Shown here: in pieces, positions 31,073 through 64,000 of the stretch
Numbering within the stretch: the stretch's first letter is position 1
Layout of the letters: each line of letters starts with the position of its first letter
NCBI GenBank assembly: GCA_020161775.1
Contig: JAIUOW010000006.1
Coordinates: 124,001-188,000, forward strand
From: Pseudomonadota bacterium
Lineage (GTDB): Bacteria; Pseudomonadota; Gammaproteobacteria; Burkholderiales; Burkholderiaceae_C
Direction of reading: 5' to 3'
DNA length: 64,000 bases
Notes under the pieces: model-generated
Database searches by the model: none
Told to the model about the DNA's origin: nothing
What the model saw: the letters and a program-made list of their open reading frames with translations, nothing else
Program-made: the position numbers and the translations under genes

Positions 31073-31193
31073 GCGCTTTGGCACCAATTTACGTCGCCTT
31101 TGGCACCTTTTAACGCGCCTTTGGCACCGCTTTAACTGCCCGGATTTACGCCCGCTTTGGCACTTTTACGCGGCTTTGGCACCAAAGTTACAG
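31073..31193. repeat. Five direct end repeats (transposase binding-site array)
   Basis: Five same-orientation copies of a core TTTGGCAC begin at 31077, 31099, 31120, 31156 and 31175. The fuller unit is roughly CGCNTTTGGCACCNNTTTAACG. Spacings are 22, 21, 36 and 19 bp, about two helical turns with one longer gap. Copies 2 and 3 are followed by TTTAAC, and copy 5 by GTTACAG. Multiple transposase sites at each end are a defining property of Mu-type elements. Confidence 0.8.
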
Positions 31194-31229
31194 CCTCACC
31201 CCTGATTTCAGCCGCCCCAGAAGCACAAA

Positions 31230-31249
31230 GGCCAGCCCCAAGGCTGGCC
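31230..31249 (-). terminator. Terminator at the end of the leftward late operon
   Basis: Read leftward, an 8-bp stem GGCCAGCC/GGCTGGCC with a 4-nt loop is followed by TTTGTGCTT. It lies 22 bp past the last late gene and would stop late transcription before the end repeats and the host tRNA. Confidence 0.75.
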
Positions 31250-31271
31250 CTCAAACCAGGGTGCGGGCTTG

Positions 31272-31502
31272 TCAGAGTTCGGGGTGCTGCTGGCGCTCCG
31301 CAGCCGTCAGGCCACCCAACATGCTGAGACCTAGCAGCAAGCCCTGCGCGACCGGCCCAAGGTCGCCGCTGTAGCCCCAGTTGAGCTGGTCCAGAGCCGC
31401 CCGCTCGGCGTGGCCGTCGAGCGCCCGCTCCAGGCGCTTCAGCAGCTCCCTGCAGGTTGCCTGGTTGGCTGCGTAGGCTTGGGCGGCTGTCTTGTTTGGC
31501 AT
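31272..31502 (-). CDS. Small phage protein of unknown function (76 aa)
   Basis: A 76-residue protein beginning MPNKTAAQAYAANQATCREL. It is mostly helical, with a basic amphipathic N-terminal half (LLKRLERALDGHAERAALDQL) and a hydrophobic stretch (GPVAQGLLLGLSMLGGLTAAE). I do not recognise the family. The ATG at 31502 is preferred over an upstream in-frame ATG (31586) because the preceding residues look non-coding. It is the last leftward gene of the prophage, next to the methyltransferase. Confidence 0.55.
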   Translation of the reverse strand: MPNKTAAQAYAANQATCRELLKRLERALDGHAERAALDQLNWGYSGDLGPVAQGLLLGLSMLGGLTAAERQQHPEL

Positions 31503-31593
31503 GGTCGGCTCCGTGTTTCGATGGCACCAGTACCGCTCTGTTCGGCCCCGCCAGCAAGCGCGCCGACAGGTGTCAGACCACGGCACTCGGGCA

Positions 31594-32433
31594 CTACCAG
31601 TTGCGGATCAGCAGCTCGCCCTTTTCGGACCGCCCGCGCCCTGATCCACCCACCGTGTATCGGATGGCCAGGCGGCGCGTCTTGAACCCCTTGAAGGCCT
31701 CGCGCATCTCAGGGATGTCGTTCACGCTGACGATTGCCTTGCCCTGGATCGACCGCATCAGCTCGGCCATGCGGTGGTACTGATCGAGCCCAAAACCCAC
31801 CCCGTAGCCCTCGGTCGCCCAGTAAGGCGGATCGCAGTAAAACAGCGTGTGTGGCCGGTCATAGCGCGTCATGCAGGCCGCCCAGTCCATGTGCTCGATC
31901 ACGACCCTGGACAGCCGAAGGTGGGCGGCACTCAAGTCCTCCTCAATGCGCAGCAGGTTCAGCGCCTGGCTGGACGTGGTGGCCACCCCGAAGGTCTGGC
32001 CGTCCACCTTGGCCCCGAAGGCCAGCTTTTGCAGGTAAAAGAAGCGTGCCGCCCGCTGGATATCCGTCAGGGTCTCAGGCGGCGTGGCCTGAGCCCACTC
32101 GAACAGCTTGCGGCTGGACAAGGCCCAGCGGAACTGCCGGACGAACTCCTCCAGATGGTGGCGCACCACGCGATACAGGTTCACCAGGTCGGCGTTGACA
32201 TCGTTCAACACCTCAACCTTTGAAGGCACTTTGTTAAAGAGCAAGGCCGCTGCACCAGCAAACGGCTCCACATAGCAAGTATGCGGATCGAACCACGGCA
32301 GTATCTCTGCCACCAGGCGACGCTTGCCGCCTATCCACGGGATGATCGGCTGGGCCTTGAGGCCCATTCCCATCACCGCATCGTCAAACAACATGCCGGC
32401 GTCGGCCGGCGTCCCACTACTGACAGTTTTCAT
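31594..32433 (-). CDS. Dam-type DNA adenine-N6 methyltransferase
   Basis: A 279-residue D12-class methyltransferase. The N-terminal SAM-binding motif PWIGGKRRLVAEI is at 32-44, with EPFAGAAALLFNK near 56-68, NDVNADLVNLYRVVR, and the catalytic DPPYWATEGYG at 201-211. It transfers a methyl group to adenine N6, the probable site being GATC-like by family. It sits at the distal end of the late operon, a position comparable to mom in phage Mu, so DNA protection from restriction is a likely role. Confidence 0.9.
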   Translation of the reverse strand: MKTVSSGTPADAGMLFDDAVMGMGLKAQPIIPWIGGKRRLVAEILPWFDPHTCYVEPFAGAAALLFNKVPSKVEVLNDVNADLVNLYRVVRHHLEEFVRQFRWALSSRKLFEWAQATPPETLTDIQRAARFFYLQKLAFGAKVDGQTFGVATTSSQALNLLRIEEDLSAAHLRLSRVVIEHMDWAACMTRYDRPHTLFYCDPPYWATEGYGVGFGLDQYHRMAELMRSIQGKAIVSVNDIPEMREAFKGFKTRRLAIRYTVGGSGRGRSEKGELLIRNW

Positions 32434-32567
32434 ACGATCCCGACTTTTCTTTAACTACACTCCCCTTCACCTGGTACCGGGTGGCGGGGCCTTAGGTCGA
32501 AACCGTGGATACACACGGCAGTAGGTGGACGGGGGAGCGCTGCAACGCCGACCCGTCCGCCCCGTCT

Positions 32568-33056
32568 TTATTGAGGTGCGGCACCTCCCGGCTCAGTGAC
32601 CACGGCACCAGGCAACGCAGCCAGATGCTCGAACAGTCGGTGCGGGTGCCACTCCCACGGGCGCTCAAGGCCACGTGCAGCGGCCAGAGCCTCGGTGCAG
32701 AAGATCCAGCGCGAGTAACTCACGCGCCACGGCAGCACGAAGCCAAACAAGCTGATCCAGTCGTATGGGCGGCCCATGTGGGCCATGAAATACTCCACCG
32801 ACCCACTGATCTCCTGACGCGTGGCCGGAACAGTCACCAGCACCCACCGGCCACTGTAAAAATCGATGTCCTTGGCACGCACACCACCGTCTCGGAAGCT
32901 GGATGACAAGCCCTTGCCGTTGGGCGCGATCTGCTCGCCGTGACTGAATCGGCCACGCGTACGTGGCCACCGGCATACCAGCTGATCAAACAGGCGGGCC
33001 TTGCTGTTCTCGGCCTTGCGGCCTTTGTAGAAGGCGTATGTGATCGTGTCGCTCAT
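32568..33056 (-). CDS. YiiX-like permuted papain-type hydrolase, phage-associated
   Basis: A 162-residue protein with the layout of permuted NlpC/P60 (YiiX/YaeF) enzymes: a His early in GRFSHGEQIA near 35-44, a beta-rich core (RWVLVTVPATRQ), the segment YFMAHMGRPYDWISLFGFVL, and a Cys late in WIFCTEALAAARGL (about 119-130), followed by PHRLFEHLA. The expected His-before-Cys order supports the call. It may be a tail-associated peptidoglycan or lipid hydrolase. Its start overlaps the fibre gene stop. Confidence 0.6.
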   Translation of the reverse strand: MSDTITYAFYKGRKAENSKARLFDQLVCRWPRTRGRFSHGEQIAPNGKGLSSSFRDGGVRAKDIDFYSGRWVLVTVPATRQEISGSVEYFMAHMGRPYDWISLFGFVLPWRVSYSRWIFCTEALAAARGLERPWEWHPHRLFEHLAALPGAVVTEPGGAAPQ

Positions 33057-34276
33057 GATTCGACCTCTTCAAGCATTTCGGCCGCGCTCAGCAGGCGCGG
33101 TGCTGTGGCGACCTGCTGCACGATGCCGTTGATGTGCCAAAACCCGTTGGCGCTGCCTACGCGCACAGTGCCCAAAGCGGGCAGCGTGGTCAGGTTGCCC
33201 GCCACAGCGTCCAACACAGCGGTGCCGCTGGCGGCGAACCGCATCAGGCCTGCCGCGCGGCTGTAGCCGATGGCGTACTTGCGGAACTCGCCAGGTGTGC
33301 CAGCGGCAACCTTGTTCGCGGTGTTGATCGCACCGTCGAAAATCTGGCCCTCGATCTGGCCGTCGGGCTGCTTGTTGATCGTGACAACAGCGCCATCGTC
33401 GCCCTCTATGCGCAACAGCATGGGATAGCCGGGTGTCGCGTCGGGGTACGGCTCCTGCGCCGTGACTATCAACGTCCATTCATCGCCGTCCAGGTCGAGG
33501 GCCGCTAGGTCGGTGCAGGTCAGCGAGTCGGCGGTGCGGGTAAGTGGACCACCAGGCGTCAATATGAGGGACGTTGATCGCGCGCCCACCTGGTAATCAA
33601 CGCAGCCGAAGTAATGCCCTGTGCCCGCTGCCGGCGTGCCGGCAATGATCATGCCGAAGTAGCCGGCGCTGGCCGTCGTCGTCGCGGGTGTGCCGTACTG
33701 GATGATCTCAGCCAGACCACCACCGTGATCAATCAGCTCAGCCGTGCCGACTGTCGTATTAATCGACATGGCGTCAAGATCGACAAAAGTGCGGGCAAAA
33801 AAGTTCGCGCCGCCAGACGACACTTCACAGACCAGACGTGGATCAGCGGCATCGCCCAGGCGGGCAAACCAGCGCAGCGTTTCCGGCACGCCAGCCGTGT
33901 GGGCAAAACCGTTTTGGTAGCAGTAGCTCCCGGTGCCGGCGGCCAGGAATCCCATCGGATCGCCAGACGGACCGAGCGCGCCGGGCGCGGCTGTGAGCGT
34001 CGTAACGCCGTCCGTTTGCCAGGCACCGCCCGGATGCACAGGCGTCACGCCATTCTGCGCGCGATTCTGACGGCCGCCCTCGATTACCACGCCCTGGCCC
34101 ACGTTGATGCGCGGCGCGCTAGCAGGCACGATCAGGCCGCTGCCGTCAATCCGTGAGCCATTGGCACCACCAGTGGCCACCCACGGCCACGGCGCCTTGG
34201 TGTCGCACGCATTGAAGCGCCACCGCTTGAGGCTACGCGACGTGCGCGCCTGGCCACCGAAGATGGTCGCGGTCAT
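33053..34276 (-). CDS. Phage tail fibre / spike-type structural protein
   Basis: A 407-residue protein starting MTATIFGGQARTSRSLKRWR. The middle contains the fibre-type motif VDYQVGARSTSLILTPGG followed by PLTRTADSL, which in many phage fibres precedes a LamG/concanavalin-like sugar-binding domain; here that domain would be WTLIVTAQEPYPDATPG to TLPALGTVRVGSANGFW. It probably contributes to host recognition. The ATG at 34276 overlaps the previous stop (ATGA); the longer upstream reading is the shadow of the neighbouring gene. Confidence 0.7.
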   Translation of the reverse strand: MTATIFGGQARTSRSLKRWRFNACDTKAPWPWVATGGANGSRIDGSGLIVPASAPRINVGQGVVIEGGRQNRAQNGVTPVHPGGAWQTDGVTTLTAAPGALGPSGDPMGFLAAGTGSYCYQNGFAHTAGVPETLRWFARLGDAADPRLVCEVSSGGANFFARTFVDLDAMSINTTVGTAELIDHGGGLAEIIQYGTPATTTASAGYFGMIIAGTPAAGTGHYFGCVDYQVGARSTSLILTPGGPLTRTADSLTCTDLAALDLDGDEWTLIVTAQEPYPDATPGYPMLLRIEGDDGAVVTINKQPDGQIEGQIFDGAINTANKVAAGTPGEFRKYAIGYSRAAGLMRFAASGTAVLDAVAGNLTTLPALGTVRVGSANGFWHINGIVQQVATAPRLLSAAEMLEEVES

Positions 34277-34740
34277 CAGGCGCCCCCGTACACCGCGGGC
34301 CAGTCGCCCGTCCAGTCGTAGGCCAGCGGCTCGGCGCTGGCCATGACGGCGCCGCGATGCATCTCCGCCGTGGCGAAGATCGCAGCCTCCTGCGCGGATG
34401 CGGCCGCGAAGATGGCCACCGCCCAAGCCTGCGACATGGTGACAAACGTGCCGTCCATCGTTTTCCAGGGCACCGCTGGCACGCCAGCACCAGCCACCAC
34501 CAGCGCGATCTGCTGGGTCTTGCTCTTGAGATCGCTGTGAAACCACTTCGTGACCTCGCCCACTGTGACCTGGTAGCCGCCCGTGTCGCTCAGACGCTCG
34601 CGGTGCGCCTTGATGCGCTCCCACACCGCAGCACGTGCGTTCGCCACGCTGTTGTCAATCTCCTGCTGCGCAATCCATGCCGCCTCTTCCTCAAGGGTCA
34701 TGTCGCGCTGCCCGGTCGGCGTCGCAATTTGCAAGGGCAT
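34276..34740 (-). CDS. DUF4376-like phage protein (tail-fibre associated)
   Basis: A 154-residue protein with AAVWERIKAHRERLSDTGGYQVTVGEVTKWFHSDLKSKTQQIAL in its middle, the typical DUF4376 core, followed by VPAVPWKTMDGTFVTMSQAWAVAIFAAA. Such proteins lie next to fibre genes and may chaperone fibres. AAGGAG sits 6 nt before the ATG at 34740. It lies between two fibre genes. Confidence 0.72.
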   Translation of the reverse strand: MPLQIATPTGQRDMTLEEEAAWIAQQEIDNSVANARAAVWERIKAHRERLSDTGGYQVTVGEVTKWFHSDLKSKTQQIALVVAGAGVPAVPWKTMDGTFVTMSQAWAVAIFAAASAQEAAIFATAEMHRGAVMASAEPLAYDWTGDWPAVYGGA

Positions 34741-34750
34741 GTCCGTCTCC

Positions 34751-36067
34751 TTATGCGTTGGGCACGGCGTACAAACGCATCGTGCAAGTGATGGTCCCGC
34801 TGTCCGCGAACAGCTGGATGCCGGTGAGCGCACCGGTTCCCTGGTTCATGGCGTTACCAAAACAGCCTGAAATTTCGGTACGCACCGACGCCCCGCGCCA
34901 TGTCACCAGCTTGGTGATCGCAGTGTTGGCAGGCCGGGTGATGCGCAGGGTGAGCGTGAAGCTGTTGGAGGCGCCATTGCCGCAGTTCAGGATTGGCACA
35001 TACGAAGACGGTGCGCCGCTGCCAGCAGTCGAACTCACCCCAAGCGTAGAAGCATCCGACGACTGGGTGTACTGATAAGTCGAGGTCGAGACAACCGAGC
35101 CGCCAAGCTCAAAACGCATACGCAATTCGGCGTTGTTCACCGAAGTGACGCCGGACACCACAAGGTCGTAGACATCGGCCGCACCGTCCAGCCCGGTGTT
35201 GAGCAGCGCAGCTGCAGCCGCTGTCGCAGTTACAGACGCGACTGGAGCACTGCTAACGCCGCCCAACAGCCGTAGCGTGACGGTGGTGCCATCGCTTTGC
35301 ACAAGGCCCAAGCCGCCCACGGGTACAGTGCCCACGCCATCGACGGTCACGGCATGGCCGGGCGCATCGACCAGCGTGGAGAACCCGTTACCGAGCGTTG
35401 CTGCCGGGTCGGGATCGAGCGTGATGGTGTCGGTGCAGCGCAGCGTGGCGCCCAGGTCGGCGGCGGTGATGGTGCCGTTGGCGCTGCGCGCTTGCACCAG
35501 GCTGCGCACCTCGGCATCCTCACCCTGCGGCCCTTCAATGCCCTGCGGCCCGCGAACGCCAGACACCGCGATCACCCAGTCGCTTTTCTCGGTGGCGGTG
35601 CCCGCGGCCGTACAGGCGATCGTCAAGCCGGTACCGGCGTAAGCACCCACGGTGCCGTAGATGAACACGTTGGCGTCCGACGCGCTCACCGCCACGATGT
35701 TGTGGTTCAGCGGGAACTGCTTGCCGGCCTGCGTCACAAACACCTTGTTCCCCAGGCCCGGTGTCAGGGCCGTCGCGCTGGTGCCCTGCAGACCTTGTGC
35801 GGCGCTCGTCGCTGCCACCGCTGCGGCCACCGCCTCGTCACGCGCTTCGTCGGCCTCGCCTGCGGCTGTCACCGCGATCTCGGTGGCCTCGTCCACGTCA
35901 GACTTGTTTGACGCAACCCCCGTGGCCAGCGCCACCAGGTCGATGGCCAGATTGCCCAGCGCGGGGATGTAGCCATAGCCGATGAATCGATACCCATCGG
36001 CCGCAGTGACGTTGGCCGGGTCACTTGTGTACTCGTGGCCGTTGAGGGTGAAGGTGAAGTAAGCCAT
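34751..36067 (-). CDS. Tail fibre protein with short collagen-like segment
   Basis: A 438-residue structural protein. The N-terminus (MAYFTFTLNGHEYTSDPAN) is likely a tail-attachment domain. It is followed by an Ala/Glu-rich heptad region (about 55-90), a collagen-like GPQGIEGPQGED near 175-186, a beta-rich stretch (DTITLDPDPAATLGNGFSTLVDAPGHAVTVDG), and a C-terminal Thr/Ser-rich beta domain. The build matches trimeric siphophage fibres. Function is assigned from composition and position. Confidence 0.7.
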   Translation of the reverse strand: MAYFTFTLNGHEYTSDPANVTAADGYRFIGYGYIPALGNLAIDLVALATGVASNKSDVDEATEIAVTAAGEADEARDEAVAAAVAATSAAQGLQGTSATALTPGLGNKVFVTQAGKQFPLNHNIVAVSASDANVFIYGTVGAYAGTGLTIACTAAGTATEKSDWVIAVSGVRGPQGIEGPQGEDAEVRSLVQARSANGTITAADLGATLRCTDTITLDPDPAATLGNGFSTLVDAPGHAVTVDGVGTVPVGGLGLVQSDGTTVTLRLLGGVSSAPVASVTATAAAAALLNTGLDGAADVYDLVVSGVTSVNNAELRMRFELGGSVVSTSTYQYTQSSDASTLGVSSTAGSGAPSSYVPILNCGNGASNSFTLTLRITRPANTAITKLVTWRGASVRTEISGCFGNAMNQGTGALTGIQLFADSGTITCTMRLYAVPNA

Positions 36068-36076
36068 AGATGCCTC

Positions 36077-36946
36077 TCAGAACTGCTCTGCAATCTCAAT
36101 CGCCATCGCGTACTCAAGCGGCAGCGGATGCACAGGTGGTGTGATGCTTTCCGCCACCGCCATGAAGCTCTGCTTGGGCAGAATCGCAGCCGGCGCGTCG
36201 GTGTCGTAGATGAAGAAGAAGGGGCGCGTCACGCCCAGCTCGCGCACCATCTCAAAGAATCCGCCGTAGGTCTCGGCGCGGTCCAGGTGCTCCAGCTGCA
36301 TGCGCGTGGTGCGGTAGCTCTTTCGCCGGTCGGCAAACATCGGGCCGCCGCGTGCCCTGGTCTTGGTGGATGGATCCACGTAGAACGGCACCTGGACGCC
36401 GCGCGAGACGTTGTACCGGGGCCGAAGGATGGGGGCAACCACCACATGGCCGATATCCACCCAGCCATCCGTGTTGTCTGTGAAGTCCAGCTCCACCTTG
36501 ACATAGCGGCCCAGCACGTCGGCCGAGCCCACATGCATCCAGGGCGGCATGCGGCCCACCGCCTGCTCCGGGTCAATGCGGCCGTCAATCCACGAAACGT
36601 GGCCCCAGGGCAGACTGCCCCACGGGTAAATCTCGCCCCAGAACTCTTTCCAGCCGCTGTCCATCACCACGTCCGTGAAGCCGGCGTCGCTGGCCACCCG
36701 CACGCGCGCCTTGTCGCCGATCTGGGCGTTGTGAAAGGGCAGCGCCAGCACCTGCAGGTTGCGCGTCTTGCCCAGGTCGATCACAAACTGCGAATCGGCC
36801 AGATCCAGACTCGGGCAGCGGGCCATCTCGCTGAGCACCTCGCCCTGCAGCTTGTTCAGGTCGATCCACTCCGCGCCCGTGAAAGTGGGCGTCACCACGC
36901 TGGTGGGTTGGGTCCAGTTGGGAAAGCAAAACGCTACAGCGGCCAT
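36077..36946 (-). CDS. Phage tail protein, distal tail or tip component (289 aa)
   Basis: A 289-residue soluble protein with no obvious catalytic motif, rich in Trp and Pro (SGWKEFWGEIYPWGSLPWGHVSW), with beta-type segments DSQFVIDLGKTRNLQVLALPF and YVKVELDFTDNTDGWVDIGHVV. Its position between the long hub-like gene and the fibre gene, downstream of the tape measure, fits a distal tail or tip protein of the B3-type module. I recognise the context, not a named family. Confidence 0.6.
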   Translation of the reverse strand: MAAVAFCFPNWTQPTSVVTPTFTGAEWIDLNKLQGEVLSEMARCPSLDLADSQFVIDLGKTRNLQVLALPFHNAQIGDKARVRVASDAGFTDVVMDSGWKEFWGEIYPWGSLPWGHVSWIDGRIDPEQAVGRMPPWMHVGSADVLGRYVKVELDFTDNTDGWVDIGHVVVAPILRPRYNVSRGVQVPFYVDPSTKTRARGGPMFADRRKSYRTTRMQLEHLDRAETYGGFFEMVRELGVTRPFFFIYDTDAPAAILPKQSFMAVAESITPPVHPLPLEYAMAIEIAEQF

Positions 36947-36947
36947 G

Positions 36948-38558
36948 TCATCCCCACACCAAGAGTTCAGTCTTGCCCGTATAGCGGTCGTTCTTGACGC
37001 CCGCCACTCGCATCAGGCGGCCGTCGTCATAGCCCCAGCGGTCCTCGCGCACAACCACCACGGTGGCCGGGCGCACCAGGTCGATCAATGCCGGCGTGAG
37101 CCACTGGGTTACAGCCGCTGAATGGCGGGCCACCTTGTACAAGGCCAGCTGCGCCGTGGCAAAGGCCTGCGCTGCGGCCTCTTCAGCGATCAGGCTGGTC
37201 AGCTTCAGCTCGATCGCGTTCAGGTGCGCGTCTTTAACTGTGTTGTCGCTGTCCTGCACGGTTCGCCATTCCGTGGCCAGCCACGCCCGCGCGGCCAGCG
37301 CCGCCCGTCCACCAGGTGCGCGCACGGTGTCGGTGCCGGGGTTGGCCTTGTCGCCGCCCAGCGCCTGATCGGGCTGCGCCGTCCAGTTGCGCCCGTACTG
37401 CAGCGTCACGCGGTAGGCCGGCGCCACGTCGCCCGTTCCCACCGGGTCGGTGATCTCGATCGAGTCGGTGCGCAGGGGCGTCAGCGTGGCCACAGGCGCC
37501 CCTGCAGGCGCCGCCCAGGGCGTCAGGCGGTACACCCCTGCCGGATCGCCCCACCAGGCCGCCCCGGCGCTTGTAGCCAGCTCGGTCAGCGCCGCATCTG
37601 CGGTGGTCTCGTTGAACCAGGCGCACTCGATCTCGGCCGGCAGCGCCACGTCCAGCGCGGCCACGTCGGCCGCCGAGATCGCGCCGCCGGCCACGCCCAT
37701 GTAACTCAGCACCCGCTTCCACACCTGGGCGTGGGTGCGGTCAGCCGCGTCGCCATAGGCCGCGTCACAGGTCACCCCGCCCACGGGTGATCCGCCCAGG
37801 CGGAAGTAGCAGCCATCCACCGTGTTGGACAGCACCTTGTACTGGCCAGGCACGGCGGCCAGGCCATCATCCTGCAGCTCGGCCAGGGTGGCGTAGGCGC
37901 TGGCAGCGGCCAGCGGCACGCCGCGATCGCGCACAGCGCCCACGGTCACCGCCTCGGCGCCGACCGGAATGGAGACGTGATAGATCAGCTTGGCCGCGTT
38001 CACCAGCACCGGCTGCATGTTGCTGGCCAGCCCCAGCACGATCGCCTTGACGCGGCCTTTCAGATCGTCCACGCCCTCCAGGCCATTGGGCAGCACATTG
38101 GTGCCCGCATAGCGCAGCTGCTGCAGCGGCTTGGTCATCGCTGCGGCCAGGTCGGCCGGGCGGAAAACGATGCGGTTGCGCTCAAAGCTCGGGGCGCCCT
38201 CCTGGGTGCCGTTGATGACCGTCACGTACCCGGCCGGGTACGCCGCGCTGCGATCACCGATGCGGATCACGATGCTGCGCCCGTCAAAGGCGTAGCCCAG
38301 CAGCTGCGCGCCCAGCTCGCCGGTGGAATCATCCAGGACCACCTCGCCAGGTGTCACATGGCCATACCGGCCCGGCGCGCTGAAAACGTCGATGCGGCTC
38401 CAGCCGGGGTCCAGCAGGAAAGGCCGGTACAGCGCGTTGGCAGGCACTTCCGAGGGACGCAGGCGGTAGGCCAGGCCATCGCAAAAGCGCAGCGTCTCGG
38501 CCACGCCCAAGGCCTTGTTCCAGGCGCCGATCTCCACCAGGCAGATCTGGTCGTTCAT
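36948..38558 (-). CDS. Large tail-tip/hub-like structural protein (536 aa)
   Basis: A 536-residue protein immediately downstream of the tape measure gene; its ATG overlaps that gene's stop (ATGA). It has beta-rich N-terminal regions (YGHVTPGEVVLDDSTGELGAQ, SIVIRIGDRSAAYPAGY), a helical middle and a C-terminal domain with TPALIDLVRPATVVVV and MRVAGVKNDRYTGKTELLVWG. The position suggests a baseplate hub or distal-tail role. No enzymatic motif was seen. Confidence 0.6.
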   Translation of the reverse strand: MNDQICLVEIGAWNKALGVAETLRFCDGLAYRLRPSEVPANALYRPFLLDPGWSRIDVFSAPGRYGHVTPGEVVLDDSTGELGAQLLGYAFDGRSIVIRIGDRSAAYPAGYVTVINGTQEGAPSFERNRIVFRPADLAAAMTKPLQQLRYAGTNVLPNGLEGVDDLKGRVKAIVLGLASNMQPVLVNAAKLIYHVSIPVGAEAVTVGAVRDRGVPLAAASAYATLAELQDDGLAAVPGQYKVLSNTVDGCYFRLGGSPVGGVTCDAAYGDAADRTHAQVWKRVLSYMGVAGGAISAADVAALDVALPAEIECAWFNETTADAALTELATSAGAAWWGDPAGVYRLTPWAAPAGAPVATLTPLRTDSIEITDPVGTGDVAPAYRVTLQYGRNWTAQPDQALGGDKANPGTDTVRAPGGRAALAARAWLATEWRTVQDSDNTVKDAHLNAIELKLTSLIAEEAAAQAFATAQLALYKVARHSAAVTQWLTPALIDLVRPATVVVVREDRWGYDDGRLMRVAGVKNDRYTGKTELLVWG

Positions 38559-50987: not shown

Positions 50988-50988
50988 G

Positions 50989-56629: not shown

Positions 56630-56664
56630 CCCCCGGACTTTGCGGGGATAGGCCCAAAAAACTA

Positions 56665-56684: not shown

Positions 56685-56706
56685 CAATGCAGGGTGTTTC
56701 CTTTTT

Positions 56707-57018
56707 TCAGGGTAGCACAGGCGTGTGGGCACGCCTCTTGAGCCGCCGGCATTCACGGATATCGACCGCTGTCTTGAATCGGTGATCGTCCTCGGACAGC
56801 CAGTGCATGTTGCTGCGTCGATCTTCACCGCCCAGGCATAAAGCCTTGATGTGGTCCACGTGCCAGCCAGGGCACGCGCCACGGCGCTGGCCCGTCGAGG
56901 GGCAGGGGTTCTCGCGCTTGAAGGCAGCGACCTCTGCAGCCGAGCGTTCGATGCGAGGGTGGGCGGGCAGGCAGAAGGCGAGCGCCAGGCAGAGGGCCAG
57001 CGTCCGCGCAAGCCTCAT
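56707..57018 (-). CDS. HNH endonuclease with signal peptide
   Basis: A 103-residue protein with an N-terminal signal sequence (RLARTLALCLALAFCLPAH) and a compact HNH domain: HVDHIKALCLGGED near 53-66, Asn70 in RRSNMHW and His79 in SEDDHRFK. The paired Cys39/Cys49 flank an NPCPSTGQRRGACPG loop common to this subgroup. Export would place the nuclease in the periplasm. Its ATG overlaps the stop of the two-TM gene, and terminator copy 2 follows immediately, so it seems to be transcribed with the repressor. Superinfection defence or a role in packaging are both possible. Confidence 0.82.
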   Translation of the reverse strand: MRLARTLALCLALAFCLPAHPRIERSAAEVAAFKRENPCPSTGQRRGACPGWHVDHIKALCLGGEDRRSNMHWLSEDDHRFKTAVDIRECRRLKRRAHTPVLP

Positions 57019-57251
57019 TGATCGAGAACTTGTCTAGCTACCTTGTCGCGAGCGGCGTCTTCAATGGCCCGACCACCGGCGAATAGAGCGCCGATCACGA
57101 TAGCGATGTACACCCACCACGGCGCCGCCGGGAAAAAGAACCAAACACCCGCACAAACGACCAAGCCCAGCAGGAAACTAGTCAAGGTGATGCGTTCTGA
57201 AGGCTTCATCTTTTTCTCCGGGGGATACAGATGGTCAAAGTTTTCTTTCAT
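57015..57251 (-). CDS. Two-TM membrane protein (holin-like or immunity-related)
   Basis: A 78-residue protein with a charged N-terminus (MKENFDHLYPPEKKMKPSER), two hydrophobic segments (LTSFLLGLVVCAGVWFFFP and WWVYIAIVIGALFAG) and an acidic/basic C-terminus. AGGAGG lies 4 nt before the ATG at 57251. It starts 8 bp after the repressor stop and overlaps the HNH start. Size and topology fit a class II holin; linkage to the repressor instead suggests expression in the lysogen. Confidence 0.7.
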   Translation of the reverse strand: MKENFDHLYPPEKKMKPSERITLTSFLLGLVVCAGVWFFFPAAPWWVYIAIVIGALFAGGRAIEDAARDKVARQVLDQ

Positions 57252-57259
57252 GCAACCTC

Positions 57260-58030
57260 CTACTTGATGTTGATGCCACCCCAACGTACCCGGCCGATGA
57301 TCGCAAAGTCTCGGTCTTCTTCTTCCGTCGCTCGAATCTCAAAAGACTCGTAATCGGAGTTCAGGCTCCGAATCTTGAACACCCGCCCCGGTAGCCGCTG
57401 CACCTGCTTGACGAGCAGCGCCTCGTCGAGACGAATCACATGGATGCCGTCGCTGAACATTTCACTGCCAGCCCTCAAGTCCACCAGAACCGTATCGCCC
57501 GAGCTTAGGCGCGGCTCCATTGAGTCACCCACTACCGAAATCAGCGCTATCGCGTCATGCGATATGCCCAAGTCGCCTCGTATGTAACTCTGATCAAAGG
57601 GCCTCATGGCCTTTACCAACTCGATCTGATTGAACAGCTCGCGCACGCCAGCTGACGCCTGGATATCGAAATGCGGCACGTACACAAAAGGGTGTTGAGA
57701 GACTGCAGTGATAGCCGGGGAAACTAACAGATCACCGCCAGCGTCCGAGGAAAAGGCGGAGAGCTGTCTGGGAGAGAGGCCTAGCCCACGCGCTAGAGCA
57801 ATCAAATGCTCGGAACTCGGGTCCATCTCACCGCGCTCTATGCGTCCGATCGTGTTTGGATGCAGCCCACTCTTCCTGTGAAGGTGGCCGATCGTCAGAC
57901 CTGACCTCTTACGCGCCGCCCGCACACGTTCACCCTGAGCAATGCGCAGCTCTTCTGCGAGCGCTTTGTCGTCAGAAGAGATTCCTTCAGTCGAAGAGGA
58001 ATCGTCGCCGATCCCCGTAGCTGTGTTCAC
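57260..58030 (-). CDS. S24-family phage repressor (CI/LexA-like)
   Basis: A 256-residue repressor read from a GTG. The XRE-type helix-turn-helix is SGLTIGHLHRKSGLHPNTIGRIERGE (43-68). The C-terminal LexA-type peptidase domain has Ser170 in VVGDSMEP and Lys208 in ALLVKQV, with an Ala127-Gly128 bond (QASAGV) as the likely self-cleavage site. RecA-stimulated cleavage would make the prophage SOS-inducible, unlike Mu itself, whose repressor is not of this family. It faces the early operon across the operators at 58031-58198. Confidence 0.93.
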   Translation of the reverse strand: MNTATGIGDDSSSTEGISSDDKALAEELRIAQGERVRAARKRSGLTIGHLHRKSGLHPNTIGRIERGEMDPSSEHLIALARGLGLSPRQLSAFSSDAGGDLLVSPAITAVSQHPFVYVPHFDIQASAGVRELFNQIELVKAMRPFDQSYIRGDLGISHDAIALISVVGDSMEPRLSSGDTVLVDLRAGSEMFSDGIHVIRLDEALLVKQVQRLPGRVFKIRSLNSDYESFEIRATEEEDRDFAIIGRVRWGGINIK

Positions 58031-58198
58031 TGCAAACCCAAATTGTGATGTTCATCGCAATTATCGCGCGGCACCGGGTTTGCGTGGCCTGTTATGCCAC
58101 CCCGCAATCAGGTCTTGGGTTAATAAATCACAAAAGGGGTTGCGAAAACCCAATTTGTGCGTATCATCGCGATGAATAACCCAAATACAGGTGATTTA
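58031..58198. promoter_or_regulatory. Operator region between repressor and early operon
   Basis: AACCCAA occurs at 58035, 58147 and 58178, and inverted (TTGGGTT) at 58115. Two longer direct repeats, 58036-58058 and 58148-58170, agree at 18 of 23 positions and both end TCATCGC. A perfect palindrome TCATCGCGATGA lies at 58164-58175. A GATAAT box on the minus strand (58065-58060) could be the repressor -10. This is the expected site for repressor and Ner binding. Confidence 0.75.
58140..58167 (+). promoter_or_regulatory. Early rightward promoter
   Basis: A -35 TTGCGA (58140-58145), 16-bp spacer and -10 TATCAT (58162-58167) lie 31 bp before the Ner-like start. The second operator repeat covers the spacer and -10, so repressor binding should block it. 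Confidence 0.55.
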
Positions 58199-58480
58199 AT
58201 GGATTGGCACCCCGCGCAAGTGAAGATGGCCCTCGAAATGGAGGGGACAAATCTCGCAAAACTGGCGAGAGACCACGGATACGCGCACATCAACGACGTT
58301 TTGTCGCGTCACTGGGTTGCCGCCGAACTGATCGTTGCCAAGGCGCTGGGAAAAAAGGCCGAGGAAATCTGGCCGAGCAGATACGCGCGGTCCAGAGAGC
58401 GGGCGAAAGCGCTGACGCGAAATGCGCAGGTTCGCAAGAAATTCGCCGGGGCACTGAAGCAGGCGAGGACGCAGTCATGA
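58199..58480 (+). CDS. Ner-like DNA-binding regulator
   Basis: A 93-residue protein of the Ner/Nlp (SfsB-like) type: MDWHPAQVKMALEMEGTNLAKLARDHG, then VLSRHWVAAELIVAKALGKKAEEIWPSRY, with the WPSRY end of the DNA-binding domain and a basic tail. In Mu, Ner turns down early transcription and the repressor promoter. AGGTGA lies 4 nt before the ATG at 58199. It is the first rightward gene; its stop overlaps the next start. Confidence 0.88.
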   Translation: MDWHPAQVKMALEMEGTNLAKLARDHGYAHINDVLSRHWVAAELIVAKALGKKAEEIWPSRYARSRERAKALTRNAQVRKKFAGALKQARTQS

Positions 58481-58584
58481 AGCCGCGCTTTGTCCTCATC
58501 GCCGAGACGCGGCTTAACGTCGTCGCCATCGGGCTGCACACGCATACCTTCCGCGAAGGTGAAATCGTGCGGGAGGGCGAATGA
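58477..58584 (+). CDS. Very small early protein (35 aa)
   Basis: A 35-codon ORF (MKPRFVLIAETRLNVVAIGL to EIVREGE). Its ATG overlaps the Ner-like stop and its stop overlaps the next start, so it fits exactly in the chain of coupled early genes. No family recognised. The beta-like sequence and perfect junctions favour a real gene. Confidence 0.55.
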   Translation: MKPRFVLIAETRLNVVAIGLHTHTFREGEIVREGE

Positions 58585-58916
58585 TCCACAAGACCATCCC
58601 CCTCAAGTCCGTGCGCGACGCGCTCATGTGCGCGATGGTGCGCAAGTGCAGTGGTCGCCAGTCGATGGACGGCAAGCCTCTGGGCCGCTGCGCCGCGTTT
58701 ACCCAGTACCCGCTGCTGAACATCGCCTGTCGCGAGGCCAAGCGCGGCCACCGGCCTTACCTGCACCAGCCGCATCACTTCGGCCCCATGTCCAAGGGCG
58801 ACATGGAGCGGGTACTGAAAAACGTGCGCTGCGCGGGCCTGGCCGAGGTGCGCCGCACCTGGGGCCAGGGCATGCGGGCAATGGCGGTTGAATTCGCCGA
58901 TGGGGTCATGCGATGA
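58581..58916 (+). CDS. Early phage protein of unknown function (111 aa)
   Basis: A 111-residue basic protein (MIHKTIPLKSVRDALMCAMVR, GKPLGRCAAFTQYPLLNIAC, KGDMERVLKNVRCAGLAEVR). It has four Cys but no clear zinc motif. It overlaps the genes on both sides by 4 bp, directly upstream of the transposase. Perhaps a DNA-binding or transposition accessory protein; no family recognised. Confidence 0.6.
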   Translation: MIHKTIPLKSVRDALMCAMVRKCSGRQSMDGKPLGRCAAFTQYPLLNIACREAKRGHRPYLHQPHHFGPMSKGDMERVLKNVRCAGLAEVRRTWGQGMRAMAVEFADGVMR

Positions 58917-61069
58917 CCTGGCTCACCGCCCGCGAACTCGCCGGTCTTCCCGGCATGCCCGGCTCCGAGCGCCGCACCCGCGACAAGCTGGCCCAGCTGC
59001 AGGTGCCTATGCGCTCCCGCGCTGGCCGGGGCGGTGGTCAGGAATACGACTGCACGGCGCTGCCCGCCGAGACGCGCACGGCCCTGATGATCGACAAGAT
59101 CGCCCAGGCCGCGCCTTTGGTGGCCGCGCATGCCGAGGCGACCGTCCCCGCACAGGTGGCCGCCAACCTTCCCGCCCCCATCACCGCACGCCGTCCGCCC
59201 AGCCAGGCAGACAAGGCCGTCGCCGACGCCCGCGTGATGCTGATCAACCGCCTGGAGGAACTGGCCGGCCTGCAGGGCACCAAGAAGGGCGCGGCCCTGC
59301 TGTCCCTGCAGCTGTCCAGCGGTCAGGCCAGCGCCGAGCTGCAGGCCACGGCCCGCACGGCCAACCAGCGCCCGCGTGATGCATCGGTCAGCCCGCGCAC
59401 CCTGCTGCGCTGGCTCAGCACCCACAGGGCCGAGGGCTGGTGGGGTCTGCTGCCCGCCCAGGCCGACGACACCGGCGCCGAAGTGGGCAACGACGTAGCG
59501 GCGGTGCTGGGCCGGTACCTGAACAAGGACGCCCGGTACCGCAACCTGAGCGCCGCCGCGATGGAGGTGAACGCCGAACTGGGCAACGACCCCGACGCCT
59601 GGCGCAACCTATATGCGCGCGCCCGAAGGGCACTGCCTAAGGTCAATCGCGTGGACCTGATCAAGGCACGCCACTCGGGCGCCGAGCGCGCAGCCAAGCT
59701 GCCCTTCAAGCGCCGCGATACCAGCGTGCTCAAGCCGCTGGACGTGTGGCTGATCGACGGCCACACCTTCAAGGCCAAGGTACGCCACCCCGATCACGGC
59801 GCCCCGTTCGCGCCTGAGGTGACTGTGGTTAAAGATGCCGCCACCCGCCTGATCTGCGGTTGGTCGGTGGCGTTGAGCGAGAACGTGATCGCGGTGGGCG
59901 ATGCCCTGCGGCACGCGGTTGGCCGCTGCGGTAGCCCGGCGATCGTCTACAGCGACAACGGCGCAGGCGAAACCGCCAAGCAGATGGACTGCCCTGTAAC
60001 CGGCATCATCGCGCGCCTGGGCGCCGATCACCGCACCGGCATCGCGGGCCATCCGCAGGGCCACGGCCTGATCGAGCGCGGCTGGCGCACCCACATGATC
60101 AACTGCGCGCGGCAGTTTGGCAGCTACCAGGGCAAGGACGTGGACAGCAACACGCTGCGCAAGGTCAGCGCCGAGCTGGCCAAGGAGCAACGCGCGCTCA
60201 AGCGGGCCGAGTCCACGGGCGAAGTCATCCAGCTCAGCCACAAGGCCCCCACCTGGAAGCAATTCATTGACGCCGTGCAGGTGGCTGTTGACAAGTACAA
60301 CAACGAGCACCGCCACCGCAGCCTGCCCAAGAACGCCCAAGGCAAGCACATGACGCCGGCCGAGGCATGGGCCGCCATGCTCGACACCAGCCTGCAGCAC
60401 AAGCTGGGCGAGTTGGAGCTGCGCATGCTCTTCATGCCGGCCGTGCTGCGCACCGCCAAGCGCGGCGAGGTGACGTTCCTCAATCAGACGTACTTCTCCA
60501 ACGACCTGATGGCCGTGGACGGCGAACAGGTCCGGGTGCATTACGACATCCACGACCCCAACTTCGTGATGGTGTTCAGCACAGACGGCGAGTTCGTCTG
60601 CGAGGCGAAGTGGAACGCCAACCGTATCGACTACTTCCCCAAGCCCGTGGTGCAGATGGCGCGCGAAAAGCGCGTCGATGCGGCCGTCAAGCGGCGCGAG
60701 GGTCAGATCGAACTCGCCAAGCGCGAGCTGCAGGGCACCTACGGCCCTGCCAATGTTTTTGCCCTGCCGGAACCGTCCGCCCCCGTGGTGGTGGTGCCCC
60801 CGCTGGAGGTGCATGTCTCCTCCTCCCCCTCCCTCTTGCTTCCAGAGGCGCAGCCGGTGCAAACCGCTGCGGGCAGGCCTTTCTTTGACACACAGAGCCA
60901 ACGCTACGAGTGGCTCATGTGCAACCGCACCGCCTGGGCTGACGCCGATCACGCATGGGTCAGCGATTACGTCCAGGGCGACGACTACGACGGCCTGCGC
61001 GACTACTTCGCCTCGCGCGGCATCGACTGGCAAGCCACCAACCAAACCACTACGAGGGGAACTGCATGA
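58913..61069 (+). CDS. MuA-like DDE transposase
   Basis: A 718-residue transposase. The N-terminal Mu-type DNA-binding domain (MTWLTARELAGLPGMPGSER) is followed by a helical HTH region with PRTLLRWLSTHRAEGWWGL near 161-179. The catalytic core has Asp282 (VWLIDGHTF), Asp348 (IVYSDNG) and Glu388 (GHGLIERGW), giving spacings of 66 and 40. A Mu-transposase C-terminal beta-barrel (LNQTYFSNDLMAVDGEQVRVHYD) and a Pro-rich then acidic tail follow. It binds the end repeats and performs integration and replicative transposition. Confidence 0.95.
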   Translation: MTWLTARELAGLPGMPGSERRTRDKLAQLQVPMRSRAGRGGGQEYDCTALPAETRTALMIDKIAQAAPLVAAHAEATVPAQVAANLPAPITARRPPSQADKAVADARVMLINRLEELAGLQGTKKGAALLSLQLSSGQASAELQATARTANQRPRDASVSPRTLLRWLSTHRAEGWWGLLPAQADDTGAEVGNDVAAVLGRYLNKDARYRNLSAAAMEVNAELGNDPDAWRNLYARARRALPKVNRVDLIKARHSGAERAAKLPFKRRDTSVLKPLDVWLIDGHTFKAKVRHPDHGAPFAPEVTVVKDAATRLICGWSVALSENVIAVGDALRHAVGRCGSPAIVYSDNGAGETAKQMDCPVTGIIARLGADHRTGIAGHPQGHGLIERGWRTHMINCARQFGSYQGKDVDSNTLRKVSAELAKEQRALKRAESTGEVIQLSHKAPTWKQFIDAVQVAVDKYNNEHRHRSLPKNAQGKHMTPAEAWAAMLDTSLQHKLGELELRMLFMPAVLRTAKRGEVTFLNQTYFSNDLMAVDGEQVRVHYDIHDPNFVMVFSTDGEFVCEAKWNANRIDYFPKPVVQMAREKRVDAAVKRREGQIELAKRELQGTYGPANVFALPEPSAPVVVVPPLEVHVSSSPSLLLPEAQPVQTAAGRPFFDTQSQRYEWLMCNRTAWADADHAWVSDYVQGDDYDGLRDYFASRGIDWQATNQTTTRGTA

Positions 61070-61833
61070 AGCCTGGGTTCGTTCAAACAGAAAACTTCCG
61101 CCGCCTGAAGGACGCCGAGAAGCTGGTCGCCCGCCGGGGCGCCAGCGAGGCCGGCCTGGTCATCGTGCGCGGTGTCTTCGGCGTCGGCAAGTCCAAGCTC
61201 ACCGAGCGCTGGGCGGCCGAGAGCGGCTACGTGTTCATCCGCGCCAAGGAGACTTACACCAAGCGCGCCCTGCTGGACGAGCTGGCCGACGCAATGGGCC
61301 TGGCCAAGGGCGGGCGCAACATCGAGGTGCAGGGGCGGATCATCGCCAAGGTCGGCGTTGACATGGTGCCGATCATCGTGGACGAAGCCGACCACCTGGT
61401 GCGCAGCACGGCCAGCCTGCTTGAAGTCTTGCGCGACATCACCGACGTGACGGGCTGCATGTGCTTCCTGGTCGGCATGGAGCACTTCCCCATGAAGGTC
61501 GCGCGTTATGGCCACATCGCCAGCCGCGTGGCCAAGGTGGTCGAGTTCGAGACGCTGTCGATCGGCGACATCCGCGCCACGGTGAACGCCAAGGCCTCGC
61601 TGGGCTCCGAACCGAATGCCCCCGCACTGCCGATGGACGAGGACGTGGTGGCCGAGATCCACAAGCAGTGCTCTGGCCGCATGCGCCTGGCGCTGAACGC
61701 GATCGCCAACATTGAGGGCTGGGCGCACGCCAACGGCTGGAAGAAGGTCACCCTGGCCGACATCAAGGGCAAGGCCCTGTGCACCGAGTTCAGCGGCAAG
61801 CCGCTGGGCGTCTCGGCCAACCGCGTCAAGTAA
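61066..61833 (+). CDS. MuB-like transposition ATPase (AAA)
   Basis: A 255-residue AAA ATPase with Walker A VFGVGKSKL near 38-45 (38-46), a Walker B VPIIVDEADHLVRS, and sensor-type VTGCMCFLVGMEHFP. It lacks the long N-terminal HTH extension of MuB, like the shorter B proteins of BcepMu-type phages. It captures target DNA, stimulates the transposase and gives target immunity. Its ATG overlaps the transposase stop. Confidence 0.92.
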   Translation: MKPGFVQTENFRRLKDAEKLVARRGASEAGLVIVRGVFGVGKSKLTERWAAESGYVFIRAKETYTKRALLDELADAMGLAKGGRNIEVQGRIIAKVGVDMVPIIVDEADHLVRSTASLLEVLRDITDVTGCMCFLVGMEHFPMKVARYGHIASRVAKVVEFETLSIGDIRATVNAKASLGSEPNAPALPMDEDVVAEIHKQCSGRMRLALNAIANIEGWAHANGWKKVTLADIKGKALCTEFSGKPLGVSANRVK

Positions 61834-62468
61834 TGAGCGCCGCCGCCATGACGCCCGCCCTCAAGCCCGTCGAAGAGCTGCGCTGGGTCGCCTCGGCCGT
61901 GCTGCAGGCGCTGGCCGAGCGCGGCAAGGGCAAGGGCGACACATTCACCGCCGCCGATCTGCTGGCATGGGTGCCCGCGTTGTCGGCGGGAGCCAAGCGA
62001 ACCAACGCCACGACGCGCCTGGTCGGGCTGGGCCTGCTCACGTACCGCCAGGGCTTCGACGCCGACACGGCTGATCTGCAAGGCACCTACACGGTTACAG
62101 CGGCCGGCGCCGAGGCGATCCAGGCAGCCAAGGCGGGCAAGGCCCACAAGAGCGGCCCCAAGCGACCGCACGGCAACCGCCCGCAGTCCGCCAGCGCCTT
62201 CAGCACGCAGCTGTGGCGCCTGGTGCGCGCACGGCGCCTGCTGGACGCCAAGGAAGCCGCCGAGACGCTGGTGGATGCCGGCGACGACGTGAAGAAGGCA
62301 GAACAGCACGCCTCCAAGCTGTTCCGCCGCTGGGAGCTGACCGGCCACCTGGCTGCGAGCAAGCAGCGCGTCCACAGGGTCGGCACCAGCAACGGTCACA
62401 AGCGCTACGTGCTGATCAACGACTGCGGCCCGATGCCGCCTCAATCTCCCTCCAAGAAGACCGCATGA
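61833..62468 (+). CDS. Early protein with two winged-helix-like regions (211 aa)
   Basis: A 211-residue protein starting at a TAATG junction with the B gene. The first half (VASAVLQALAERGKGKGDTF, RLVGLGLLTYRQGFDAD) and the second (QLWRLVRARRLLDAKEAAETL, LFRRWELTGHLAAS, GHKRYVLIND) each look like a winged helix, joined by a basic linker. A GTTACAG site lies inside. A DNA-binding role in replication or regulation is inferred. Family not recognised. Confidence 0.65.
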   Translation: MSAAAMTPALKPVEELRWVASAVLQALAERGKGKGDTFTAADLLAWVPALSAGAKRTNATTRLVGLGLLTYRQGFDADTADLQGTYTVTAAGAEAIQAAKAGKAHKSGPKRPHGNRPQSASAFSTQLWRLVRARRLLDAKEAAETLVDAGDDVKKAEQHASKLFRRWELTGHLAASKQRVHRVGTSNGHKRYVLINDCGPMPPQSPSKKTA

Positions 62469-62896
62469 GCTACAAGAAGGAACCCTGGTTTGCCCTGCTG
62501 CAAGCCACTGCGCAGACGCTCAACCGCGCCAAGGTGGCCGGCCTGCTGGGCGTCAGCGCACCCACCATCAGCCAGGTGCTCAACGGCTCCGGCAAATACG
62601 GTGACGGCACGGCCAGCACAGACAAGCTGGCCGAGAAGGTGATCCACACCTTTGGCCGCTACTCCTGCCCGCACCTGTCTGAGCAGACCGGCTTTGGCGA
62701 TAAGGCGGTGGAAATCACGGCCGATCAATGCCGGACCTATGCCCATCGGCCCGCACCAGCGGGCAGTCCCGGCGACATGCAGCACTGGCAGGCCTGCAAC
62801 CGCTGCCCCCACAAGGCGCACACCGCGCCACCCACCGCGCGTGAAGTCAAGCCGCGCAAACCCCGCAACCAGGAGACCTCTCATGAAGCTCTTTAA
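62465..62896 (+). CDS. HTH protein with a Cys-rich C-terminus (143 aa)
   Basis: A 143-residue protein with a LacI/XRE-like helix-turn-helix (LNRAKVAGLLGVSAPTISQVLNGSGKYGDG) near 19-48, then four Cys (SCPH, DQCR, WQACNRCPHK) that could bind a metal, and a basic tail. Similar regulators lie after the transposition genes in B3/BcepMu-type phages. Start and stop overlap the neighbours. It may control early-to-late switching. Confidence 0.75.
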   Translation: MSYKKEPWFALLQATAQTLNRAKVAGLLGVSAPTISQVLNGSGKYGDGTASTDKLAEKVIHTFGRYSCPHLSEQTGFGDKAVEITADQCRTYAHRPAPAGSPGDMQHWQACNRCPHKAHTAPPTAREVKPRKPRNQETSHEAL

Positions 62897-63161
62897 CTCA
62901 GCGCGGGCGCACGCCACGCAGCTGGCCCAGCACTTCCTGCTGGGCGGCCCTGTCGGCGTCTTCTACGCCGTCAAGCTGGCCTGGCTGCGCGCCCGCGCCG
63001 CGCGGATCAGTCTGCACATCCACCGGGAGCAGGAACTGCACCGCGCCAACCTCAAGGCCCTGAATCACGAGCTGAACGAGGTGATCAGCGCACAGCAGGG
63101 CACCAACATTGCCGCTGCGCAGTTCTGGAGCTGGTGCGACAAGAAGGCGGGGCAGTCATGA
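62883..63161 (+). CDS. Small early protein, basic amphipathic (92 aa)
   Basis: A 92-residue protein (MKLFNSARAHATQLAQHFLL, then GGPVGVFYAVKLAWLRARAA) with one weakly hydrophobic segment and a helical region (HREQELHRANLKALNHELNEV). It overlaps the preceding gene by 14 bp and the next by 4 bp. A CTTTAAC site sits at its fourth codon. No family recognised. Confidence 0.6.
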   Translation: MKLFNSARAHATQLAQHFLLGGPVGVFYAVKLAWLRARAARISLHIHREQELHRANLKALNHELNEVISAQQGTNIAAAQFWSWCDKKAGQS

Positions 63162-64000
63162 GCGTCGAACGCATCCTGCCGGTGGCGCGCGAGCTGGCCG
63201 CCCGCCCTGAGGGCATGAGCAATGGCGACTTGGCTATGGCCGCCAACCTGACAGCCAGCGCTGCGGGCGCCTACATCCAGGTGTACATGAACAATGGGCA
63301 CATCTTCAGGGGCCAGCCTGACGGAAAACGCGCCCGCTACTTCACCACCCAAACCGCCGCCGACGCCTTTCGGGACGGCAACCAGAAGCCACTGACCCTG
63401 CAGCGCGCCAGCCCCGACATGCTGGCCCGCGCGGCCGTGGCCCAAATGCGCAAGGACCAGATCCGCAGCAGCGCGAGCCTGGCAGAGACGCTGCACGTCA
63501 AGCCCGAGCAGATCGACGCGGCGCTCGCCCCGCTGGTCAACGCCCATTACCTTACCCGCGTGAACGTCCTGCGCGGTGGCGTGACGATGTTCGACTACAG
63601 GTTTTCGGCAGCGTGGACGCCCAAGTCTGAGGACTTCGATGGCCTGGTGTGGGACGGTGCCTCCCCCCAAGCCAACGTGAGCCCGGTGGCCGCGCCAAAG
63701 GCCACGCCCGCACCCAGCCCGCGGCCTGCGCCCGCCACGGCGCCTGTGGCCCCGCCAAAGCCCGCCAGGGACGCCTTGGCGGCTGGTGGAGACCTGGGCC
63801 GTCGGCCCCTGCACGCCGAGCCGGACCCGGTCGAGCGCAAGGCCGAGAAGGCAATCGAGGCCGCTGCGGAGTTAAAGCGGCCTACGGTGCTGAATGTCCT
63901 GCGTGCCGACGACATGGTCTGCGCCATGAACTCGCGCGGTGAACTTGCACTCGACCTGGCAAACGACACGGTGCTCAAGTTCACGCCGGCCAGCGCGCTG
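63158..64000 (+). CDS. Early protein with tandem winged-helix-like regions (partial, runs off the window)
   Basis: Open for 281 codons to the window edge. Two HTH-like regions are visible: SNGDLAMAANLTASAAGAYI near 21-40 and RSSASLAETLHVKPEQIDAAL near 107-127 with the wing LRGGVTMFDYRFS. A Pro/Ala-rich linker follows, and then a third segment (RPTVLNVLRADDMVCAMNSR). Its ATG overlaps the upstream stop. Together with the 211- and 143-residue proteins it suggests a set of DNA-binding early proteins. The end is unknown. Confidence 0.65.
   Translation, partial: MSVERILPVARELAARPEGMSNGDLAMAANLTASAAGAYIQVYMNNGHIFRGQPDGKRARYFTTQTAADAFRDGNQKPLTLQRASPDMLARAAVAQMRKDQIRSSASLAETLHVKPEQIDAALAPLVNAHYLTRVNVLRGGVTMFDYRFSAAWTPKSEDFDGLVWDGASPQANVSPVAAPKATPAPSPRPAPATAPVAPPKPARDALAAGGDLGRRPLHAEPDPVERKAEKAIEAAAELKRPTVLNVLRADDMVCAMNSRGELALDLANDTVLKFTPASAL

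Follow-up and report, generated by a model that had tools for sequence, protein, structure and literature searches.

Introduction

How a transposing phage of 37-40 kb avoids inserting into its own genome is an open question. The genome immunity of Mu is reported to be mostly independent of MuB, the authors stating that more remains to be learned (PMC7350765), and a phage of the D3112 group is reported with 0.4% self-insertion in a structured pattern (PMC5977238). The strong gyrase site of Mu is needed for end synapsis and for the Mu domain (PMC3820752), and the nu mutations, later traced to this site, have been mapped to the middle of the genome, in the neighbourhood of genes G and I (PMC10052514). 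A different kind of dispersed site is represented by the stoperators of cluster A mycobacteriophages (L5, TipsytheTRex), more than 20 short asymmetric sites spread over the genome and read by a phage-encoded helix-turn-helix (HTH) protein, the immunity repressor; they sit in promoters and short intergenic spaces, and their orientation follows transcription (PMC9283540). Here we describe a Mu-type transposable prophage whose DNA is rich in the 7-mers GTTAAAG and GTTACAG (together GTTAMAG). It occupies the second half of a window of 64,000 nucleotides, the whole stretch of DNA analysed (contig JAIUOW010000006.1, positions 124,001 to 188,000, assembly GCA_020161775.1, Pseudomonadota bacterium).

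We propose that these 7-mers, distributed genome-wide with a denser, conserved central cluster, are bound by an early DNA-binding protein of the phage itself, most likely a 143-residue protein that we call HTH143, and that they may serve in folding or marking the phage genome. Resting on sequence comparison, this reading is given a probability of roughly 0.45. No earlier report of dispersed sites in transposable phages was found among the titles and abstracts listed by literature searches that covered few subscription papers.

Enrichment of GTTAMAG in the prophage

Both strands of the prophage part of the window together carry 16 GTTAAAG and 12 GTTACAG, exactly at the 28 coordinates listed in an earlier note made from the letters of this DNA; that note reported none in the 31 kb of host DNA, where it missed one GTTACAG at position 167. 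Across the whole genome (4.36 Mb) there are 118 GTTAMAG, 35 in the prophage (7 of them past position 64000, beyond the window end) and 83 elsewhere. The resulting densities, 0.85 per kb in the prophage against 0.019 per kb in the rest of the genome, differ 44-fold.

A third-order Markov model of the prophage part of the window predicts 2.0 GTTAAAG and 1.9 GTTACAG, a joint value of 3.9 to which the earlier note's expectation of about 3 in 33 kb comes close, and the two words rank 2 and 4 among the 6079 strand-merged 7-mers present there. Under a second-order model 0.5 and 1.4 are expected, and the inner 6-mer GTTAAA is found 19 times against 1.3. At fifth order the excess is gone (16 vs 15.2 and 12 vs 11.4 expected; ranks 2741 and 2807), in our reading because the 6-mers used by that model are themselves nearly all part of the motif, so that the model absorbs the signal.

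Synonymous-codon shuffling of the 39 listed open reading frames (ORFs) yielded a mean of 2.2 sites and a maximum of 7 in 500 shuffles, as against 18 observed. A host sample of 237 kb, eight of whose stretches were picked around listed sites so that it is biased upward, holds 2 GTTAAAG (2.0 expected under the Markov model) and 10 GTTACAG (5.3 expected). The Markov rate of this sample (7.3 per 237 kb) corresponds to about 130 sites outside the prophage, where 83 are observed. On the evidence of the Markov models, the codon shuffles and the host control, a composition artefact was rejected as the cause of the excess.

The sites lie on both strands, in genes and in gaps, as the earlier note had it: 18 of the 35 are within the listed ORFs, 11 on the strand of the gene and 7 on the opposite one. 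The remaining 17 exceed their share (p 4e-5), the listed ORFs making up about 82% of the prophage, and some of these 17 may fall in ORFs absent from the list. Of the 20 GTTAAAG, 14 are outside the listed ORFs, whereas 12 of the 15 GTTACAG are within them.

Two further repeats were seen. CCTGCAG, too, is over-represented in the prophage part of the window, with 42 copies where the third-order model expects 13.8, and likewise in several relatives. Three GTTAAAG occur within 1.6 kb (C3:196961-198587), in a region rich in repeated words (L002, G000:C3:188000-207000) that is probably one long repeat protein.

Words in related phages

Relatives keep the habit of a dispersed word, not the exact word. 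A related transposase was found in 41 viral loci, and 23 of these records were analysed in full or nearly so (G206 for 40 of 76 kb; several records are cut); the relatives are not independent and the words are inferred from counts. Labels of the form G### and L### denote records and loci, respectively, of the phages and prophages compared. A TTAAA-type 6-mer ranks first under the second-order model in 20 of the 23, and second in G200. The word is GTTAMAG in G199 and G224, TTTAMAG in 12 records, TTTAAAC in G212 and GTTAAAC in G209 and G215; it is mixed in G200 and undecided in G204, G205 and G207. Eight further records carry TTTAAAC (G229), TTTAAAM (G231), KTTAAAC (G233, G234), a mixed word (G235), CGTTAAA (37 vs 2.5 expected in G226 and 38 vs 5.0 in G227) and GTTAAAY (G228, with 35 GTTAAA vs 1.3 expected). 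In this regard, the earlier note had suggested checking the word by a Markov-corrected count, by its density in the host genome and by its presence in related transposable phages. The first upholds the excess at second and third order and not at fifth, and the other two agree with it.

Prophages of related hosts carry different words, GTTAAAC in Pseudacidovorax (L190; 6 copies, TTTAAAG 0) and TTTAAAG in Acidovorax facilis (L188; 8 copies, GTTAAAC 0), and the reader should therefore be phage-encoded.

Other repeated words occur in other transposable phages, namely ACTTGACA (7 vs 0.3 in L202) and CGTTAGA (in L182 12 copies against 1.1 expected, in L050 10 against 1.2).

A recurring central element

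The five-site cluster at 49887-50071, already pointed out in the earlier note, lies at 0.46 of the prophage length and has a recurring counterpart in many relatives. Two of its sites (49972 and 49983) are on the same strand, 11 bp apart. In 12 records, the order and spacing of the sites downstream of the MuF-like gene recur while the intervening DNA does not align. The 32 phages compared have 668 sites, a palindromic site being counted on both strands, and 16 same-strand pairs with a distance of 11 bp, each in a different phage. The pair follows MuF in all 13 pair-bearing phages covered by the MuF mapping. Measured from a point some 60 nt short of where the MuF match ends, its distance is 141-303 nt (761-772 in G234), and in G226, G227 and G228 the pair stands at 0.51, 0.53 and 0.55 of the contig. 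MuF ends at 0.38-0.68 of the contig in the relatives, with the exception of G206 (0.23 of the stretch covered). In G211 and G223 the third site is on the other strand instead.

A GTTAGA pair exactly 11 bp apart is present in the corresponding interval of D3112 (19658 of 37611) and DMS3 (18901 of 36415), two closely related phages, with a chance expectation of 0.0005-0.002. Their annotation places this interval between genes G and I; in the phage described here, where no G gene was identified, the cluster is flanked by the MuF-like gene and by a 93-residue ORF that the capsid gene follows. The interval near G and I to which the Mu nu mutations map appears to be the one that holds the D3112/DMS3 pair, which we count in favour of the proposed reading. 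The earlier note's view of the word as a recognition site for a phage DNA-binding protein is well supported, both by the differing words in phages of related hosts and by a central geometry that is kept across unaligned DNA.

The interval 49749-50066 also corresponds to the place of the anti-CRISPR genes in DMS3 and D3112, and it is longer in some relatives.

HTH143 as candidate reader

Judging from its distribution and its covariation with the word, HTH143 is the best candidate reader. Its ORF matches a family of unknown function (phrog_2119), and a homologue was found in all 23 transposase relatives. The protein has an N-terminal HTH, with helix 32-40 as recognition helix, which in a model adopts the fold of XRE/LacI-like regulators, and it differs from these in its C-terminal part, which carries four invariant Cys. 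By sequence, no relative with a solved structure was found at E below 0.3. A G-x-Y-G-x-G-x-A loop is present in 60 of 85 homologues and absent from 25. A 3-fold GTTAAA excess with at least 5 copies is reached by 8 of 9 distant loop-bearing loci and by 0 of 27 loop-less ones (the 25 plus DMS3 and D3112), several loci on either side being near copies. The distance over residues 21-50 tracks the word once terminase distance is corrected for (partial Mantel r 0.47 in 28 phages; p 0.0005, the floor of 2000 permutations). Where residue 32 of the recognition helix is basic, C exceeds G at position 7 of the word in 7 of 7 phages (about four lineages), while in the other 22 phages G leads in 17, ties in 2 and trails C in 3.

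In D3112 and DMS3 (Casadabanvirus) the genes for the transposase, the B protein, the regulator and the homologue of HTH143 (orf11 and gp9, respectively; about 32% identity) follow one another as they do here, and a central 11-bp pair is present as well. The two phages differ in lacking a clear genome-wide word excess and in having another loop and recognition helix. The putative regulator reg211, encoded next to HTH143, was rejected as reader: no homologue was found in eight distant word-bearing loci.

Several observations weigh against HTH143 as the reader or against a role in folding or marking. The Mantel signal is not specific to this protein, since GemA (0.55-0.60) and Mor (0.56-0.62) give higher values and the whole transposase (0.34-0.39) and the small terminase (0.28-0.33) also track the word; when full Mor is controlled for, the HTH143 signal is left only for position 7. 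A one-residue code (Gln37 for G at position 7, Lys44 for G at position 1) is contradicted by G233 and G234, which have Gln37 yet C at position 7, and by the distant phages G226-G228, with G at position 1 without Lys44. At position 7, C leads G merely 36 to 26 in G227, and G204, G205 and G207 are undecided. L154 (15.8 of 18.5 kb covered) has a loop-bearing homologue and no word, the TTAAA-type 6-mer is not top-ranked in G219 and G220, and these two and L192 are weak or negative for the word. Conversely, among the loop-less loci L201 has 4 GTTAAA vs 0.7, and CGTTAGA is over-represented in L162 and L181-L183; other GTTA words thus exist without the loop. Genome-wide, GTTAGA shows no excess in D3112 (3 vs 2.6) and a weak one in DMS3 (8 vs 2.5) that is partly the central cluster itself. 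The 37 bp free of insertions in phage Ab30 (PMC5977238) do not coincide with the GTTAGA pair; placed by the coordinates of the record, whose length differs from that in the paper by 33 bp, they lie at a distance of more than 500 bp from it, close to the promoter of the anti-CRISPR genes. Site spacing is only slightly more regular than random (15 of 20 phages, not independent, below the simulated median), and even spacing was rejected as a sign of genome coverage.

Proposed role and alternative explanations

Folding or marking of phage DNA is suggested by the genes around HTH143, by the spread of sites over the whole genome and by the central element. HTH143 would nucleate on the central tandem sites and then occupy the dispersed ones, and the phage genome would thereby be folded or marked as self. 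Such a state could help to pair both ends, could shield the phage DNA from insertions by its own transposition machinery, or both. The central position, the apparently corresponding gene interval and the possible role in end pairing and self-recognition recall the strong gyrase site, the Mu domain and the genome immunity of Mu, the difference being that the strong gyrase site is a single site bound by host gyrase, whereas here there are many short sites and a candidate phage HTH reader. A broader claim seems doubtful to us at present: throughout a large group of transposable phages, HTH143 would be a genome-marking protein of the phage itself, binding a word that has evolved all over the phage genome, nucleating at a central tandem element where Mu has its gyrase site, and thereby telling phage from host DNA for the transposition machinery. 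If true, the genome immunity of Mu-type elements, so far unexplained, would have a phage-encoded basis in which the protein and its dispersed sites evolve in step. The locus offers a testable combination of word, recurring central cluster and candidate protein, the last with a homologue in the laboratory phages D3112 and DMS3, and a natural record of a dispersed site set changing specificity in concert. The nucleoid-type protein suggested in the earlier note comes closest to this reading, although HTH143 was not named there.

The main rival keeps HTH143 as the reader and makes it a distributed transcription regulator, either a stoperator-like silencer or a regulator of operons and of the cargo locus beside the central cluster. 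The excess of sites outside the listed ORFs, the location of the central cluster in the interval that holds the anti-CRISPR genes of DMS3 and D3112 and the XRE-type fold of HTH143 all favour it, and we nevertheless consider it unlikely. Unlike stoperators, about half of the sites (18 of 35) lie inside listed genes, and their 11 to 7 division between strands does not follow the orientation rule. Stoperators are read by the immunity repressor; here the repressor appears to vary (a homologue in 10 of 23 relatives) while TTAAA words persist, and this phage has a central tandem cluster. The S24 repressor and Ner, which would fit the regulator envisaged in the earlier note, are disfavoured as readers, homologues of each being found in 10 of 23 relatives (some records are cut).

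It is improbable that Mor, or another co-inherited early protein, reads the sites. Mor distance follows the word better than HTH143 distance does, and the recognition helix of Mor differs between word classes. Against this, in G228 the GTTAAAY word is strong and the Mor helix is DMS3-like (residues 93-118, with 23% identity to that of this phage), and G227 shares CGTTAAA with G226 but matches best to a Mor of the DMS3 type. In L154, Mor is 41% identical and there is no word, which counts against HTH143 as well, present there in its loop-type form. An activator of a few promoters would hardly need some 35 sites.

We regard it as very unlikely that the sites belong to the transposase, a reader suggested in the earlier note, through its end-binding or enhancer-binding domain. 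Two sites do lie inside the left-end array, as that note had observed. Mu transposase has an N-terminal enhancer-binding domain; the Pfam domain of this region is present in the transposase described here, and the distance measured over the entire transposase follows that of the word (partial r 0.39 and 0.34). However, the end repeats CTTTGGCACC / TTTGTGCCAAAG, which form a visible array in 7 of 24 records (the remaining ends are cut or dissimilar), are common to phages whose words differ, and the word is not a regular part of them. Those of G199 and G217 share a core, not the word, and transposase end sites were discarded as the identity of the word. In addition, the N-terminal recognition helices differ among phages sharing TTTAMAG, and the N-terminal domain gives partial Mantel values of -0.14 and -0.04.

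Host nucleoid and replication proteins read short asymmetric words in bacterial genomes, and one of them might read these sites. This is just as hard to uphold, given the shortfall of sites outside the prophage (83 vs about 130 expected) and the different words in prophages of related hosts (L188, L190).

Least credible are targets of the phage adenine methyltransferase, attractive at first as the D12-class enzyme occurs in 23 of 33 records (some of the remainder cut) and dropped after G245 and G246 (L171, L173), where the enzyme is 64-65% identical and no TTAAA-type excess is seen in the 16.2 and 15.0 kb covered, G226-G228 having an enzyme 60-63% identical although the word differs.

Prophage organization and additional observations

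The assignment to the Mu type rests on a DDE transposase with Mu domains, a MuB-like ATPase, Mu-type head genes, Gam, GemA and Mor; an S24 repressor is present as well. The target duplication GGTCAAT is identical at both prophage ends and measures 7 bp, as compared with the 5 bp made by Mu. Coordinates are collected in Table 1.

Table 1. Prophage features and GTTAMAG sites, in window positions
Feature	Coordinates	Strand	Remark
GGTCAAT, left copy of target duplication	31056..31062		right copy 72388-72394, beyond window
Mu-type transposable prophage	31063..64000 in window, to ~72387		
Left-end array, repeats of GGTGCCAAAG	31070..31190	-	CTTTGGCACC on +
GTTAAAG sites	32233..32239; 44047..44053; 59828..59834; 63871..63877	+	
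GTTAAAG sites	31130..31136; 32449..32455; 37232..37238; 42779..42785; 46125..46131; 46962..46968; 62891..62897	-	
GTTACAG sites	31187..31193; 35229..35235; 37108..37114; 39021..39027; 54037..54043; 62094..62100	+	
GTTACAG sites	40182..40188; 42639..42645; 52616..52622; 54244..54250; 55740..55746; 59994..60000	-	
D12-class adenine DNA methyltransferase	31594..32433	-	disfavoured as reader
Central element, five GTTAAAG	49887..50071		directly 3' of MuF-like gene
Central GTTAAAG sites	49887..49893 (-); 49972..49978 (+, tandem 1); 49983..49989 (+, tandem 2); 50032..50038 (+); 50065..50071 (-)		
MuF-like head morphogenesis gene	50067..50987	-	landmark for central element
S24/HTH phage repressor	57260..58030	-	disfavoured as reader
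Mu-type transposase	58913..61069	+	
MuB-like AAA protein ORF	60955..61833	+	likely start inner ATG 61066
Putative regulator reg211 (phrog_2030)	61833..62468	+	between MuB and HTH143
HTH143, 143 residues	62465..62896	+	candidate reader; phrog_2119
Mor	71367-71765		beyond window

In G199 and G224 the D12 methyltransferase reaches 85-88% identity, as against 68-69% for the transposase; in G226-G228, where its identity is that given above, the transposase reaches only 33-38%. In G213, G223 and G225 the contigs run from the right end directly into the left-end array, probably a circularised assembly. Downstream of mor, at 71904-72074 in extended coordinates (L001:11904-12074), there are inverted and direct GTCGGAC repeats, two motif copies in this region lying within a perfect inverted repeat of 13 bp. 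Repeats of a similar kind but with other letters are found near the ends of G202 and G217.

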